10,150 nt of DNA from Rhodospirillaceae bacterium (GTDB lineage Bacteria; Pseudomonadota; Alphaproteobacteria; JABSOH01), in contig JAHDDM010000025.1 of the NCBI GenBank assembly GCA_020629355.1, positions 1 through 10,150 on the forward strand, written 5' to 3'. The position numbers were made by a program, and so were the translations under genes. The notes below the pieces were generated by a model that was given only the letters and a program-made list of their open reading frames with translations, ran no database searches and was not told the origin of the DNA. This document shows positions 4,210-10,150 of the stretch, piece by piece (within the stretch, counting starts at the first letter, position 1; each line of letters starts with the position of its first letter).

Positions 4210-6354
4210 ATGGATAGAGTGCGTATCGTTCACGATAATCTATGCACGAGATTGCAGTCTGGCGATTACCCTGAAGGTGCGGCTCCTGCCTCTGGTCTTG
4301 ATGCAGCACGAGAGATTTTCCGCGCACAATGTCTGAGCCGCGCACTTGATCGTACCAGCCGTGTTCTGCAAAGTCAGGGACAGGGCTTTTACACGATTGG
4401 CTCTTCTGGCCATGAAGGCATGGCGGCAGTCGCACAGGCAACACGTACCAGCGATATGGCATTCCTGCATTATCGTGATGCCGCCTTTCAGCTGATGCGT
4501 GCGCAACAGGCAGGGATGGATAGTGCGGTATGGGATATGCTGCTGTCGTTTGCCTGTGCTAAGGCTGATCCTATCTCTGGTGGACGGCATAAGGTCTTGG
4601 GATCAAAAGCACTGAATATCCCACCACAGACCTCAACAATAGCCAGCCATTTACCGAAAGCTGTCGGGGCGGCATTTTCCATTGGGCTGGCAAAACGCCA
4701 GCCGCCAGAACATCGTGTGCTGGATGATGATAGTATCGTTCTTTGCAGTTTTGGTGATGCCTCGTTGAATCATTCGACGGCACAGGGTGCAATCAATACG
4801 GCTTGCTGGACAGCCTATCAATCGATGCCTCTGCCTCTGCTGTTTGTGTGCGAAGATAATGGTATCGGTATTTCAGTCAAAACTCCAAAGGGTTGGGTTG
4901 CGGCTAATATGGCCAACCGTGCTGGCTTGCGGTATTTCGCTGCCAATGGTTGCGATATGTATCAGACCTATGCCGCAGCTCAAGCCGCCAGTGACTATGT
5001 TCGCCAGACACGAAAGCCTGCCTTTCTGCATTTGTCTCTGGTGCGATTATATGGTCATGCTGGCGCAGATATTGCCGCAAGTTATCTATCGCCGCAAGAG
5101 ATAGAAGCCGCAGAGAATAACGATCCTTTATTGCATTCGGCACGGTTGCTTGTAGCAGCAGGTGTGATGAATACACAAGAAGCCTTAGAAATGTATCTGA
5201 ATATTTGCGCTGAGGTCACGGCTCTGGCGGAGCATATCCCCGCCGAACCGCGCTTGAGAAATGCCGCCGAGGTCATGGCTTCCCTGATCCCAAGGCCAAG
5301 ACAATGTGCGATTACCACAGTGACCCCGCTTGAAAATCCATCGAAAAGCCCGATGAGCCTCAGTAAAGGCCTGAATCTGGCTTTACGCGAGGCCATGCAG
5401 TCCTATCCTGAAACTGTATTGATGGGTGAAGATATAGGCCGTAAAGGCGGCGTGTACGGTGTCACGCAAAAGCTACAGGAGAAGTTTGGCAATAGTCGTG
5501 TTGTGGATACCTTGCTCGACGAGCAATCCATCCTTGGGCTGGCAATGGGGCTGGCGCATAATGGTTTTACGCCGATTCCCGAAATTCAATTTCTGGCCTA
5601 TCTACACAATGCCGAAGACCAATTACGCGGCGAGGCCGCAACCTTATCGTTTTTCTCAGATGGGCAATTTACCAACCCGATGCTGTTGCGTATTGCGGGG
5701 TTGGGCTATCAAAAAGGCTTTGGCGGGCATTTCCATAATGACAATTCACTGGCAGTATTGCGCGATATTCCAGGTCTGATTGTTGCCTGTCCGAATCGCG
5801 CCTCCGAGGCCATATTGATGTTCCGCGAGGCACTACGTTTAGTACGGCAAGAACAGCGTCTTGTGGTGTTTCTTGAACCGATTGCGCTGTACGCGACAAA
5901 GGACCTCTACGAAACAGGGGATAACGGCTGGCTGGATGGGTATCCTGATACAGAAGAAACCGTAGATTTTGGCACCGTACAGGTGATCGGAGACGGCACG
6001 GATGTTGCCTTGATCAGCTATGGCAATGGTGCGTATCTGTGCCAACAGGCGGCAAAAGAGCTTGCAGAAAAACACGGCATTTCAGCACGTGTCATCAATA
6101 TACGCTGGCTTGTGCCGTTACCAGAACAGAGCATACATGCAGCGATACAGGGCTGTACAAAAATACTGATTGTCGATGAATGCCGCCGTTCAGGCAATAT
6201 CGCCGAAGGATTACTGAGAATCTTACACGGCTATCCGAATGTTGAGTATCTTGCAGCAGAGGATTCCTTTATTGCCACTGGCCCTGCTTTTGCGGCAACC
6301 ATGCCGAGCCGTGATACTATTGTTGCGCATATATACCAAACTGCCCCATGTTAA
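4210..6354 (+). CDS. Fused E1 alpha-beta thiamine-diphosphate 2-oxo acid dehydrogenase component
   Basis: E1 subunits decarboxylate 2-oxo acids with thiamine diphosphate and pass the acyl group to lipoyl-E2. This 714-residue chain fuses both subunits. The alpha part (about 35-345) has HYRD (87-90), a thiamine-diphosphate motif starting SFGDASLN (180-187) and ending EDNGIGIS (215-222), and YGHAGAD near 281. A proline-rich linker (about 358-382) leads to the beta part (about 383-710), with MGEDIG (405), the activating glutamate E437 in DTLLDEQS, the histidine-rich GGHFHNDNS (505-513), and a transketolase C-terminal domain. GDA replaces the usual GDG, a mild deviation. The beta wording is closest to pyruvate/branched-chain E1. 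No E2 or E3 gene is nearby, so it may borrow a housekeeping E2 or act as a stand-alone decarboxylase/ligase. GGAG precedes the ATG at 4210. The substrate is unknown. Confidence 0.9.
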   Translation: MDRVRIVHDNLCTRLQSGDYPEGAAPASGLDAAREIFRAQCLSRALDRTSRVLQSQGQGFYTIGSSGHEGMAAVAQATRTSDMAFLHYRDAAFQLMRAQQAGMDSAVWDMLLSFACAKADPISGGRHKVLGSKALNIPPQTSTIASHLPKAVGAAFSIGLAKRQPPEHRVLDDDSIVLCSFGDASLNHSTAQGAINTACWTAYQSMPLPLLFVCEDNGIGISVKTPKGWVAANMANRAGLRYFAANGCDMYQTYAAAQAASDYVRQTRKPAFLHLSLVRLYGHAGADIAASYLSPQEIEAAENNDPLLHSARLLVAAGVMNTQEALEMYLNICAEVTALAEHIPAEPRLRNAAEVMASLIPRPRQCAITTVTPLENPSKSPMSLSKGLNLALREAMQSYPETVLMGEDIGRKGGVYGVTQKLQEKFGNSRVVDTLLDEQSILGLAMGLAHNGFTPIPEIQFLAYLHNAEDQLRGEAATLSFFSDGQFTNPMLLRIAGLGYQKGFGGHFHNDNSLAVLRDIPGLIVACPNRASEAILMFREALRLVRQEQRLVVFLEPIALYATKDLYETGDNGWLDGYPDTEETVDFGTVQVIGDGTDVALISYGNGAYLCQQAAKELAEKHGISARVINIRWLVPLPEQSIHAAIQGCTKILIVDECRRSGNIAEGLLRILHGYPNVEYLAAEDSFIATGPAFAATMPSRDTIVAHIYQTAPC

Positions 6355-6441: not shown

Positions 6442-8109
6442 CTAAATCTGAAGGGCAATATCGCTGGCAAGCAGAGGCATCAACGTATAGCCATGACCGC
6501 CCGCACCTGCAAGGACATATAATCCTTCCTGTCCTGCAACAGCACCGCACAGAGGCCAGTGTCCTCGAATGCTGAGTTTCTCTGCATGCCAGTCTTGTTG
6601 TGCATCACCCTGAATATTCCAATGCGCCAAAATATTTTCAGCGTTTTTAGGCTTTCCTAACCAGAAACCAGAATTACCTGGTAGCAAATGGCTGCCCCAA
6701 CCGCCTAAGGCTATTTTTGGTGCTGTTGCCGATTGGTAATATTGAATTTCGCCAGTTTTAATCTGTGTCGTTGCGGCAAGTTCTGGCATCAGACTACGGA
6801 TACCTGCACCAGCCGCGATAATGACAGCATCAAAGCCAGAATATACTTTGCCTTCAGCATCAGATAGCTGCCAGCCTGAATTATTATACAAAAAAGACGT
6901 AATATTCGCGTTTATTCTTTCGGCGCCCTGTAATAATATCGCTAATAGTTTTGCAGTATCCAGACTTAATGCAGAGGGCAAATATTGCACTTCGGTATCC
7001 ATTATGACCCCTGAAAGGGTGCGTGCTTGATCAGGGGAGCACATCCTCGCAGCATGGTCACCTAAGCCGTTCCAGCCTGTACAGGCAGAGCGTAATCGTT
7101 CCAGAGAAAAAGCCGCTGAGGGAACTTTTAATGCGCCCACAGAAATAATCGCTTCAGGATATTGTTGATAATACGGCACGGCATAGGCAAAACAACGGGC
7201 AATGTCGCGGCCTCGTGGGGTTGGATTCGCGCTCAACCTTGGGGCAACGGCAGCTATCGGCACTTCGGAGGCATAGTTTGCAGAAGCTGAAAATACACTC
7301 ACCCGATGGCCTAATCTTAGGCTCTGTTCCGCACAGCTTGCCCCCGCAATACCCGCGCCAATAATGGCGATATTTTGTTTTGCCTGTTTGCTGAAATAGG
7401 TTTTTTGCGGATTGTATCGCGCCTGTAAGCACTGTCCCTTACGCCCAAACCCTGGAACTTTCGCGACCTCGAATCCGACTTCGGCTAAATTTCGCCGCAC
7501 CATGCCCGCAACACTAAAAGTTGCAACACGGGCATTCGGTACGCTTAATCGTGCGAGATGTTGGCATATTTCAGCATTAAACATCTCAGGGTTTGTTTTG
7601 GGTGAAAACCCATCCAAATACCAAGCATCAATAGCATTATTGAGCTGAGGCAAGACCTCGGCAACATCACCGAACCAGACATCCAACAGAATATTTCTGG
7701 CAAACCAGACGCGCTGCAATCCTGATAAACGAGTCGATAAGCACTTGCTTAACCTTATCGATAAATCGGCAATTTGCGGAAATTTTTGATGCGCCCGCTG
7801 CATATCTGCAACTGAAAGTGGATATTTCTCAATACTGATATAGTGCAAGACAGGCGCATCAGGACAAGACAGCCATTGTTGCGCTGTGGCCAGAAAATTT
7901 AGTCCTGCACCAAAGCCTAATTCACCGATTCGTACCAGAGAGCCCTTACGTTCTGCTAATTCTGCCAGATTGATCCCATCGAGATAAACATGGCGCGATT
8001 CTTCTAGTCCATTTTCAGTGCTATAATACACATCTTCATAATCGGTATTATACGGAATTTCATCGCGCCATGTGATGCGATTATCGGACACCCTGAAGTC
8101 TTTCGGCAT
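6442..8109 (-). CDS. mnmC: Bifunctional tRNA mnm5s2U biosynthesis enzyme MnmC (MnmD methyltransferase + FAD oxidase)
   Basis: MnmC finishes the wobble-uridine modification of tRNAs for split codon boxes: the C-terminal FAD domain converts cmnm5s2U to nm5s2U, and the N-terminal SAM domain methylates it to mnm5s2U. The methyltransferase part shows DVYYSTENGLEESRHVYL (27-44), the SAM loop IGELGFGAGLNFL (61-73) and YLDGFSPKTNPEMF (164-177). The oxidase part begins with the dinucleotide fold AIIGAGIAGASCAEQ (248-262) and ends with a GAGGHGYTLMPLLA block (534-547). I chose the ATG at 8109 because the N-terminal length then matches E. coli MnmC residue for residue up to the DVYFS block; an in-frame ATG at 8325 would run deep through fghA. 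At 555 residues it is shorter than the 668-residue E. coli protein. Its start overlaps the fghA end by 29 bases, implying co-transcription. No strong ribosome site is visible. Confidence 0.92.
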   Translation of the reverse strand: MPKDFRVSDNRITWRDEIPYNTDYEDVYYSTENGLEESRHVYLDGINLAELAERKGSLVRIGELGFGAGLNFLATAQQWLSCPDAPVLHYISIEKYPLSVADMQRAHQKFPQIADLSIRLSKCLSTRLSGLQRVWFARNILLDVWFGDVAEVLPQLNNAIDAWYLDGFSPKTNPEMFNAEICQHLARLSVPNARVATFSVAGMVRRNLAEVGFEVAKVPGFGRKGQCLQARYNPQKTYFSKQAKQNIAIIGAGIAGASCAEQSLRLGHRVSVFSASANYASEVPIAAVAPRLSANPTPRGRDIARCFAYAVPYYQQYPEAIISVGALKVPSAAFSLERLRSACTGWNGLGDHAARMCSPDQARTLSGVIMDTEVQYLPSALSLDTAKLLAILLQGAERINANITSFLYNNSGWQLSDAEGKVYSGFDAVIIAAGAGIRSLMPELAATTQIKTGEIQYYQSATAPKIALGGWGSHLLPGNSGFWLGKPKNAENILAHWNIQGDAQQDWHAEKLSIRGHWPLCGAVAGQEGLYVLAGAGGHGYTLMPLLASDIALQI

Positions 8110-8932
8110 GTAACGCAACATGTTCACCAATGACGCTGGCGACAAAGTAAAAACTATGATCATAGCCTTCCAGAATCCGCAAATGCAGCTCTTGCCCTGC
8201 TTCTGAACAGGCTTGCTCCAGTACATGAGGCTGTAGCTGTTCCTGTAAAAACTCATCTGCGCTGCCTTGATCGACATGCAGTGTCGATTGTCGCGCGCCT
8301 TGCTGCAAAAGCGCAATGGTATCATAGGATGACCATGATGTCTGATCTGCGCCTAAATAGTGATTATACGCATTTTGCCCCCAAGGACACTGGCTTGGGG
8401 CACAAATCGGCGCAAGAGCAGAAACGCTACGATACAGTTCAGGATTCCGCAAACCCAAAACCAATGCGCCATGTCCACCCATGGAAAAGCCAGTGATGGC
8501 CTGTTTTTGCGCATCGACAGGGAAGTTTTCGACAATCAGCTGCTGTAATTCTTGCGTGATATAGCTGTACATACGATAATGTTTTGCCCACGGTTCTTCT
8601 GTCGCATCAACATAAAATCCCGCCCCAGTACCCAAAGCATAGTCTTCATCCTCGCCAGGGGTATTCGTCCCACGCGGTGAGGTATCTGGTGAAATTACCA
8701 CCATATTATGCTCGGCAGCATAACGCTGAACACCAGATTTTATAATGAAGTTTTCCTCGGTACAGGTCAAGCCAGATAAAAACCACAGCACGGGACAATC
8801 GACAAGTTCTGCATTCGGCGGCAAATAGACCGCAAAGTTCATGGTACAGCCAAGTTCTTGCGATTCGTGCTGGCAAAAAAGTTGCTTGCCGCCGTAACAC
8901 TGGTGCTGTTTGGTGACAGAATATTCACTCAT
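8081..8932 (-). CDS. fghA: S-formylglutathione hydrolase
   Basis: This cytosolic alpha/beta-hydrolase (esterase D family) splits S-formylglutathione to formate and glutathione, the last step of glutathione-dependent formaldehyde detoxification. The 283-residue length is standard. The catalytic triad is visible: S150 in GFSMGGHGAL, D226 in DQGSADEFL and H259 in GYDHSFYF. Other family blocks include FLSGLTCTEENFI (51-63), SPDTSPRG (81-88) and GAGFYVDAT (103-111). GGAG lies 8 bases before the ATG at 8932. The usual partner, a class III alcohol dehydrogenase (S-hydroxymethylglutathione dehydrogenase), is not in the window. It is the first gene of a leftward pair with mnmC and diverges from the HTH-pheA gene; the two share an 82-base intergenic region. 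Confidence 0.96.
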   Translation of the reverse strand: MSEYSVTKQHQCYGGKQLFCQHESQELGCTMNFAVYLPPNAELVDCPVLWFLSGLTCTEENFIIKSGVQRYAAEHNMVVISPDTSPRGTNTPGEDEDYALGTGAGFYVDATEEPWAKHYRMYSYITQELQQLIVENFPVDAQKQAITGFSMGGHGALVLGLRNPELYRSVSALAPICAPSQCPWGQNAYNHYLGADQTSWSSYDTIALLQQGARQSTLHVDQGSADEFLQEQLQPHVLEQACSEAGQELHLRILEGYDHSFYFVASVIGEHVALHAERLQGVR

Positions 8933-8952
8933 AGGTTTTGCTCCATTATATA

Positions 8953-8979
8953 TTGCACTGTTATACCATACGTGATAAT
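8953..8979 (+). promoter_or_regulatory. Candidate promoter for the HTH-prephenate dehydratase gene
   Basis: TTGCAC (8953-8958) and GATAAT (8974-8979) resemble -35 and -10 boxes, but the 15-base spacer is short. A TAATTT at 8976 would give a 17-base spacer with a poorer -10. It lies 36 bases before the start codon, which has AGGA at 9002-9005. The assignment is tentative. Confidence 0.35.
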
Positions 8980-8995
8980 TTTATTGTTATATCAT
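8959..8995. repeat. Two 11-bp direct repeats TGTTATAYCAT, candidate operator
   Basis: TGTTATACCAT (8959-8969) and TGTTATATCAT (8985-8995) differ by one base and start 26 bases apart. They flank the candidate -10 box of the HTH-pheA gene and also lie in the upstream region of divergent fghA. Tandem sites near a -10 box are typical of repressor operators. The natural candidate binder is the XRE-type domain encoded immediately downstream, but that is inference; the region is AT-rich, so chance similarity is possible. Confidence 0.4.
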
Positions 8996-9014
8996 CAAAA
9001 CAGGAAATTATTCC

Positions 9015-10150
9015 ATGAATTTTGCTCAGTTTCTTGCTCAAGGCCGAAAAAAGGCTGGATTGTCTCAAATTGATTTTGCCAAGGCCGCCAAAGTCTCCCA
9101 ACCCACAGTACATCACTGGGAAAAAGGCAATCGCACCCCTGATGCCAGTAAATTGAATATCATTGCCGATATTCTGGATATACCCATAGCTGAGTTACAA
9201 AGCAAGATAGGTTCGGATATTGGTTTTGCACAAGTTGCTGAAGTGCCAAAAACGGTGATCGAAGTCAAAGAGGCCGCGCCTTTACCGATCATGCCACAGA
9301 GGCCTGAAAGCCCGCAAGCAGCCAATGGTTTTGAAGAATTGCATATTTCGCCAGAATTGCGCGGGGCGCGGCAGGTGGCTTTTCAGGGGATGCTTGGGGC
9401 TTACTCGCATCAGGCGGTGATGGATTGTTTCCCGAATGCCAAGGTACGCGCCTGTGAGAGTTTCGAGCGCGCGCTTGCGGCTGTTGAGGACAAGGATAAT
9501 CACGCCGATCTCGCCATGATCCCGATTGAAAACTCACAGTTCGGTCGTGTTTCTGATATTCATCAATTATTACCTGATTCCTCGTTATATATTGTCGGCG
9601 AATATTTTTTACCTGTTAAGCATATGCTACTCGGTACACAAGAGGCTGAACTGGAAGATTTGCGCACCGCTATTTCGCATCCGCAAGCATTGGGACAAAC
9701 ACGCAACACGTTGAATACCTTGGGCATTAAGCGCGAACGTTGGCATGATACGGCTGCTGCTGCCCACGAGGTGGCGACACGCGGTGATAAACATCTATGC
9801 GCGGTGGCCTCAGAAGTCTCAGCTTCAGTCTATGGCTTGAAAATATTACGCCGTCGTATCGAAGACCATTTGGATAATGTTACCCGCTTTGTTATTATGT
9901 CGCCACGGCGTATTGATCCCCCGCGCGAAACAGCCCACACCATCACCAGCCTATTTTTCTCTCTGCGGTCTATCCCTGCTGCTTTGTATAAATGCCTTGG
10001 CGGCTTTGCTACCCAAGGCGTGAATATTCGTAAGCTTGAAAGCTATGTTCATTTTACGGATCATAGCCGTGCCAGCTTCTATTGCGAAATAGAGGGCAAC
10101 CCGCGCGACAGCAATGTCTATCAGGCTATGGGCGAATTAGAGTACTATAC
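9015..10150 (+). CDS. pheA: XRE-type helix-turn-helix domain fused to prephenate dehydratase with ACT domain (3' end cut by window)
   Basis: Prephenate dehydratase converts prephenate to phenylpyruvate, the committed step to phenylalanine. One open frame without stops runs from the ATG at 9015 to the window edge (378 codons). Residues 4-62 form an XRE/Cro-type HTH: LSQIDFAKAAKVSQPTVHHW, then EKGNRTPDASKL. Residues about 63-115 are a Pro/Glu/Gln-rich linker. The catalytic domain begins at about 119, with VAFQGMLGAYSHQA (121-134), IPIENSQFGRVSDIHQLLP from 169, and DNVTRF with the TRF catalytic signature at 290-292. The phenylalanine-sensing ACT domain starts near 303, with PAALYKCLGGFATQGVNIRK followed by LESY. 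These blocks match alphaproteobacterial PheA, which normally lacks the roughly 115-residue N-terminal extension. AGGA lies 9 bases before the start. No internal start with a ribosome site would release a PheA-only form. Both domain identities are strong; a regulatory role for the fusion is inferred. Confidence 0.93.
   Translation, partial: MNFAQFLAQGRKKAGLSQIDFAKAAKVSQPTVHHWEKGNRTPDASKLNIIADILDIPIAELQSKIGSDIGFAQVAEVPKTVIEVKEAAPLPIMPQRPESPQAANGFEELHISPELRGARQVAFQGMLGAYSHQAVMDCFPNAKVRACESFERALAAVEDKDNHADLAMIPIENSQFGRVSDIHQLLPDSSLYIVGEYFLPVKHMLLGTQEAELEDLRTAISHPQALGQTRNTLNTLGIKRERWHDTAAAAHEVATRGDKHLCAVASEVSASVYGLKILRRRIEDHLDNVTRFVIMSPRRIDPPRETAHTITSLFFSLRSIPAALYKCLGGFATQGVNIRKLESYVHFTDHSRASFYCEIEGNPRDSNVYQAMGELEYY

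Follow-up and report, generated by a model that had tools for sequence, protein, structure and literature searches.

Can an enzyme of phenylalanine biosynthesis that shares its polypeptide with a DNA-binding domain control its own production? The question is raised by a gene at the end of contig JAHDDM010000025.1 of a Rhodospirillaceae bacterium, the whole of which, exactly 10,150 bases long, was analysed here and is called the window. The gene encodes a prephenate dehydratase (PDT), the enzyme of the phenylalanine-specific step, placed between an N-terminal XRE-type helix-turn-helix (HTH) and an ACT domain. Few known enzymes carry a DNA-binding domain of their own while retaining catalysis. 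As suggested by our sequence comparisons, the fusion is likely to be a trigger enzyme, at once the sole PDT detected in its lineages and an autoregulator with a single target, reached through a putative operator.

The fusion gene (9015..10148, forward strand) comprises 378 open codons and is cut by the contig end; judged by its homologues P0002-P0005, about 18 C-terminal residues are absent from the window. Below, P0001 denotes the protein of the window, G000 its genome and G001 the genome of a congener, which also encodes a homologue. The initial annotation had read an uninterrupted XRE-linker-PDT-ACT frame, and this reading was borne out by Pfam matches to HTH_3 and PDT, by the predicted ACT fold and by recurrence of the fusion. 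The ribosome-binding site, described there as good, is present as a Shine-Dalgarno (SD)-like AGGAAAT (9002..9008, forward strand), but its strength is only moderate (-4.3 kcal/mol to the anti-SD). The structure predicted by AlphaFold2 from a 20-row alignment (mean pLDDT 80.6, pTM 0.61) consists of an HTH, a disordered linker, and PDT and ACT folds. The XRE/Cro HTH (residues 1-62, 9015..9200, forward strand) matches HTH_3 (PF01381) at residues 7-61 with 48.3 bits against a Pfam cut-off of 23; five helices are predicted at residues 3-68, and block-mean pLDDT is 89-94 over residues 1-60. The poorly conserved linker (residues 63-117, 9201..9365, forward strand) is predicted to be largely disordered, with pLDDT below 50 at residues 68-107.

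The PDT domain (residues 118-297, 9366..9905, forward strand) matches PF00800 at residues 121-297 with 175 bits against a cut-off of 25.2, covering profile positions 1-178 of 181. It is followed by an incomplete ACT domain (residues 298-378, 9906..10148, forward strand), assigned by predicted fold and structural alignment; the Pfam scan gave no match to its ACT model in the protein of the window, and residues 310-377 are predicted to form strands and helices ordered as in ACT. The best matches of the model in the PDB, found by Foldseek at 43-44% identity, were the prephenate dehydratase 6vh5, a structure of four chains with bound phenylalanine, and GqqA (7am0); the alignment of 6vh5, a PDT-ACT structure, with residues 118-378 is continuous. 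Effector domains of LysR regulators appeared among the lower-ranked matches; the PDT fold is similar to periplasmic-binding-protein folds. The Pfam scan of the fusion returned one PDT and four HTH families and no shikimate kinase domain. Enzyme and DNA-binding domain thus sit in a single chain, as judged by Pfam and the predicted fold.

A frameshift or assembly artefact is a very unlikely source of this architecture, because the congener's genome encodes the fusion too, with 78% identity to that of the window (76.5% by BLASTP), and four database proteins match the latter at 82-91%. Recurrence across genomes also speaks against a stop or frameshift between residues of about 62 and 118, which the initial annotation had named as a possible refutation, and sequencing or assembly error was rejected on the same ground. 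The database search scored 8000 proteins, 6381 of them above threshold; among the 120 best matches, 36 combine HTH families with PDT in the precomputed Pfam column. A sample of the class gave matches to the fusion profile somewhere in 363 of 385 genomes, and among the matches listed eight span the profile from its start (531-629 bits; two genomes in family f1, four in f105 and two in f65), the others listed reaching at most 490 bits and starting at model position 46 or later. As this sample lists best matches, weaker fusions could escape it and eight is a lower bound. Family f105, which includes Hwanghaeella, Marivibrio and Curvivirga (NCBI family Aestuariispiraceae), carries the fusion in 14/14 genomes of seven genera. 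It is likewise found in both genomes of a second family (in the order of G184) and in both of the window's genus. A scan of named genomes, with 80 loci kept of 583, yielded at least six fusion loci: in Hwanghaeella grinnelliae, another Hwanghaeella, Curvivirga aplysinae, Marivibrio halodurans and two metagenome-assembled genomes. In f65 the fusion gene, as read from the sequence, sits after a KdsB-like gene.

In the genomes of these lineages the fusion is the only PDT detected, with one exception. PF00800 has a single match in G000 (64.8% complete) and a single one in G001 (95% complete), each being the fusion, and no second, plain pheA, for which the initial annotation had proposed to look, was identified in the incomplete G000. 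The fusion profile finds one full-length match per genome in all 14 genomes of f105 and both of the G184 order, the remaining matches listed in these 16 being short and confined to the HTH end; the six genomes behind loci L036-L041, counted within the 16, have one PF00800 match apiece. The exception is G300, with two PF00800 matches, where the fusion profile gives one long match and the second PF00800 match may be a weak one. Elsewhere plain PheA is usual: a PDT frame was recognised by motif in 111 of 126 other loci scanned (some genomes counted twice). Fifteen of these frames stay open for more than 70 residues before the core; the extra stretch looks out-of-frame by eye, and inspection by eye found no HTH before the core in any of the 15.

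Evidence for a regulatory function comes from the promoters. The sequence upstream of the fusion gene was compared in 18 loci, and a palindrome, GTGCA-N5-TGCAC, precedes the start in three of them (L186, L189 and L190, from genomes G210, G300 and G391 of three genera). Four exact copies of GTGCAWWWWWTGCAC (GTGCA-W5-TGCAC) exist in about 12.8 Mb, where 0.1-0.5 would be expected by composition; G210 has two, G300 and G391 have one apiece, and each copy stands just before the fusion gene. The looser GTGCAN5TGCAC adds eight places in the three genomes, all of them inside frames of 309-670 codons, past the start codon; these eight are at chance level, since a reversed control pattern gives 1, 1 and 10 places. 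A dyad of 5+5 bases with an equal gap, common to the three promoters, was reached in 0/2000 dinucleotide shuffles. L186 has its two sites beginning at -93 and -55, and L189 at -95 and -57, the last of these with one mismatch. The spacing is 38 bp in either locus and, as the predicted -35 boxes fall at -35 and -37, the distance to the promoter is equal too. L190, with only 109 bases of upstream sequence, has a single site at -46. The palindrome was first noticed in these very promoters, and the argument for a putative operator is its recurrence, its spacing and the lack of other extragenic copies, not motif discovery. With no extragenic copy in the three genomes other than those before the fusion gene, it is probable that the enzyme regulates its own synthesis.

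Support from the other groups is uneven. The shuffle test found no dyad common beyond chance in the window's genus, the L187/L188 pair, L183-L185 or f65. In genus g105, TGAGAAA-N8-TTTCTCA (at most one mismatch) marks the fusion promoters of three of six genomes and three sites elsewhere, two inside genes and a third (L215) perhaps outside one, because it precedes the first ATG of its frame; it lends weak support to autoregulation. Another dyad (TTTAT, gap 5) is common to four of the six g105 promoters, reached in 0/2000 shuffles when their close kinship is ignored. Shared dyads and genome-wide scans are more telling than a palindrome test on single sequences, which was weak for most of the 18 loci, although none of 60 shuffles reached the score in L192-L195, where L195 had a different palindrome as its best. 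The promoters of L187 and L188 preserve the block TATTGGCATNTTTATG at two positions which, counted from the start, differ by 10 bp, about one helical turn.

In the window, 82 bases (8933..9014) separate the fusion start from that of a divergent esterase gene (8081..8932, reverse strand; Pfam Esterase, 218 bits), which we take to be S-formylglutathione-hydrolase-like; an esterase-like ORF is also divergent from the fusion in G001. This intergenic region holds an 11-bp direct repeat, TGTTATAYCAT, as TGTTATACCAT (8959..8969, forward strand) and, 26 bp downstream, TGTTATATCAT (8985..8995, forward strand). Both places that match in the 1.25 Mb of G000 are these, against a chance expectation of about 1.3, and the repeat is a candidate operator only. 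G001 has no copy, although its recognition helix is identical; there the nearest upstream match, some 150 bases ahead of the start, has three mismatches, and its locus contains 17 three-mismatch matches against 25 expected by chance. No operator common to the genus was found, the promoters of the window and G001 having no dyad in common and the repeat matches being at chance level. A consensus promoter scan of 8933-9014 found nothing; a TTGCAC/TAATTT pair (8953-8958, 8976-8981) was spotted by eye, and a weight scan favoured other boxes. Further from the fusion, a single ORF at 4210-6354 unites an E1 dehydrogenase part with transketolase-type (E1 beta-like) parts, and another (6442-8325, reverse strand), presumably MnmC-like, carries Methyltransf_30 and FAD oxidoreductase domains. 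The called start of the latter overlaps the esterase ORF, so that its true start probably lies further in.

The HTH might be vestigial or structural, serving oligomerisation or localisation in an otherwise ordinary PheA. Some HTH domains do function without DNA, and the window's genus and three other groups lack a common operator. The pattern of conservation and the palindromes make this reading unlikely. Identity of the window's protein to P0002-P0005 is 82-87% in the HTH, 30-63% in the linker, 95-98% in PDT and 85-98% in ACT; to the G001 protein it is 65, 41, 89 and 93%, respectively. Identity by region was used because saturation of synonymous sites in three regions out of four made dN/dS between the window and G001 unusable. 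The HTH is thus retained and far more constrained than the linker, yet faster-changing than the enzyme. Its recognition helix is kept, and the HTH segment SQPTVHHWEKGNR is identical in P0001, P0003, P0005, P0007 and G001, with a single V-to-I change in P0002, P0004 and P0006. The promoter palindromes of three genera, with no other extragenic copy in those genomes, likewise argue against a domain that has lost its role on DNA.

It is hardly probable, too, that the palindromes serve another regulator, such as a stand-alone XRE protein, or terminate transcription of the gene upstream. Candidates for both roles exist: among the 18 loci, six have a called gene for a stand-alone XRE protein (cluster cl6), and in 13 the fusion is preceded by a gene on the same strand (cluster cl1). 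GTGCAW5TGCAC, however, is present in only two (L186 and L189) of the six cl6 loci, the contig of L190 ending before the place of cl6. As for termination, the palindrome is short and AT-centred, with no run of T after it, and its distance to the predicted -35 box is constant in L186 and L189, which speaks against either role. The cl6 gene itself lies about 0.8-1.8 kb upstream of the fusion in the Aestuariispiraceae loci L183, L185, L186, L189, L191 and L192, divergent from a gene that by eye is J-domain-like and precedes the fusion.

The enzyme half could in turn have become a pure ligand sensor, another enzyme making phenylpyruvate. The initial annotation had described the TRF signature and catalytic residues as intact, and our alignment agrees: the TRF motif and N173, S221, Q228, T290 and R291, which we take to be catalytic PDT positions, are present and invariant across the 20 fusion rows. 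The bit scores are less uniform. The cut-off of the NCBI PheA equivalog is 359 bits; P0001, which lacks its C-terminal end, reaches 320.8, and the complete proteins of the window's clade P0002 and P0004 reach 349.3 and 340.8. As these two score under the cut-off, the PDT of this clade seems somewhat divergent, and the clade (with P0006 and P0007) stands on a long branch (0.71). Both points would suit a repurposed enzyme, as would the precedent of BzdR, such a case according to PMC3602430. This course is nevertheless very doubtful for the fusion: all invariant PDT positions are retained, P0007, P0016 and P0036 pass the cut-off (370.6, 418.4 and 375 bits), and no second PDT homologue was found by the fusion profile in the f105 and G184-order genomes or by PF00800 in the two of the window's genus, one of them 95% complete.

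The initial annotation had left room for control of the gene itself or of other aromatic amino acid genes, and the first of these is favoured. That the fusion governs further aromatic genes as well has little probability: the ligands of a PDT-ACT protein would suit such a role, but the other GTGCAN5TGCAC matches of the three genomes, for that pattern, are all intragenic, none of their eight host genes reads by eye as an aromatic biosynthesis enzyme, and no other target emerged there. The suggestion of a trigger enzyme is strengthened by the intact signature, by the single identified PDT and by the putative operator in three relatives, while its DNA binding is deduced from sequence.

The mechanism that we propose for the trigger enzyme is as follows. 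A PDT would have gained an N-terminal XRE domain on a flexible linker, so as to make phenylpyruvate and also bind operator DNA in its own promoter, tuning its own synthesis. The HTH would recognise a palindrome of the GTGCA-N5-TGCAC type. PDT-ACT enzymes oligomerise and respond to phenylalanine; hence paired HTHs on flexible linkers could hold paired sites, such as those spaced alike in two genera. Phenylalanine bound in ACT, or prephenate in the active site, might alter the oligomer and with it DNA binding. In our judgement the sign is somewhat more likely to be negative, i.e., autorepression by the end product. Activation is also conceivable, because the sites stand just upstream of the predicted -35 box; lambda CI, for one, activates the promoter of its own leaderless mRNA.

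Leaderless transcripts may play a part here as well. In 9 of the 18 loci (L186-L189, L191-L194 and L196) the -35 box of the best sigma-70-like promoter falls exactly 35 or 37 bases upstream of the ATG, so that transcription would begin at or beside that codon, which suggests leaderless mRNAs. All nine belong to a group of 12, among the 16 loci outside the window's genus, in which 9-20 codons separate the best ATG of the linker (one to three in-frame ATGs compared per linker) from the PDT core downstream and its SD reaches -5.4 kcal/mol or better. The six loci without such an internal start show no -35 box so placed (Fisher p 0.009), and the SD energies at the full start also differ between the two groups (Mann-Whitney p 0.028), significance being overstated in both tests through the relatedness of these loci. 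Ten of the 12 internal ATGs have an SD of -6 kcal/mol or better, against 9.5% of 199 background ATGs. Since plain PheA begins similarly near the core (median 10 residues before it in 80 proteins), the internal ATG may be the ancestral start.

The initial annotation had named an internal start giving only the PheA part as a possible refutation; such a start is possible in some relatives, and no SD-led internal ATG near the PDT core was seen in the linkers of the window and G001. The window has an ATG at codon 93 lacking an SD, and G001 only one at codon 65, beside the HTH. An internal start as a general rule is unsupported. The stretch from about residue 63 to the PDT core contains no Met in 19 of 35 homologous fusions (P0001 excluded; P0032, missed by the pattern, and P0114, with no listed HTH family, left out), and in synonymous shuffles of 13 loci the SD-like stretches were not unusual given the amino acids (Fisher p 0.51), standing out against background ATGs only. 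At least one public annotation nonetheless begins inside the ORF: PheA of Marivibrio halodurans (P0025, 285 aa; loci L041 and L187) is the C-terminal part of the fusion from Met 92, and this start conceals the DNA-binding half. As a tentative extension, possible rather than probable, a leaderless transcript would in some relatives yield the XRE-PDT autoregulator and the SD-led internal ATG a plain PDT; the subunits would mix, and at its own promoter the fusion would convey the condition of the enzyme pool.

The history of the fusion was approached by a quick tree with 29 rows for fusions and 60 for plain PDT-ACT proteins, thinned from 237 (fusions at 90% and plain proteins at 80% identity, the plain rows nearest the fusions kept first). 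The fusion label requires six changes on this tree, and a single clade of all fusions is not rejected (p-AU 0.251); one origin followed by losses and several origins are both possible. Because the lineages differ in operator, in promoter type and in whether an internal start is possible, experiments could trace how an enzyme became one that regulates itself.

No description of an XRE-PDT-ACT fusion was found among the titles and opening lines of abstracts of the literature searched, which left most subscription papers outside its scope. Trigger enzymes as a kind are known, five having been counted in E. coli K-12 according to PMC8249747. Within the literature searched, three things are new: this enzyme in such a role, the XRE domain as its partner, and a sole biosynthetic enzyme of the phenylalanine branch that apparently controls itself as a single target. 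If this reading is true, that branch joins the list of trigger enzymes with a compact, testable feedback unit.

Among known systems, plain alphaproteobacterial PheA (the PRK11899 family; 6vh5 and 7am0) resembles the fusion in its PDT-ACT part and differs from it in beginning at the catalytic domain, with no HTH. Of the regulators to be compared, PutA differs from the fusion in its DNA-binding fold, a ribbon-helix-helix; NadR and BirA each have an N-terminal HTH, and the DNA-binding domain of BzdR/BoxR is of the XRE type. BoxR/BzdR, which the initial annotation had put forward as the closest precedent, has an N-terminal DNA-binding domain, a linker and a domain related to shikimate kinase, which lost its enzyme activity on becoming a sensor, as stated in PMC3602430. 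The fusion shares this layout, in which a linker joins the DNA-binding domain to a relative of an enzyme from an aromatic pathway, but keeps the PDT signature residues and is the sole PDT identified. PutA, NadR and BirA appear to be closer precedents, because they keep catalysis. NadR and BirA are named as trigger enzymes and classed as multi-target in PMC8249747; they combine catalysis with an action on transcription, as the fusion would, and differ from it in having several targets and belonging to other pathways and other enzyme folds. The only DNA bound by PutA of E. coli is the spacer that separates its gene from putP (PMC8249747). As the fusion appears to do, PutA unites metabolic catalysis and a DNA-binding domain in one protein, and its control of itself as a single target is what the operator scans suggest for the fusion; PutA, however, is a catabolic, membrane-associated proline dehydrogenase, and the fusion a biosynthetic PDT-ACT protein joined to an XRE domain.
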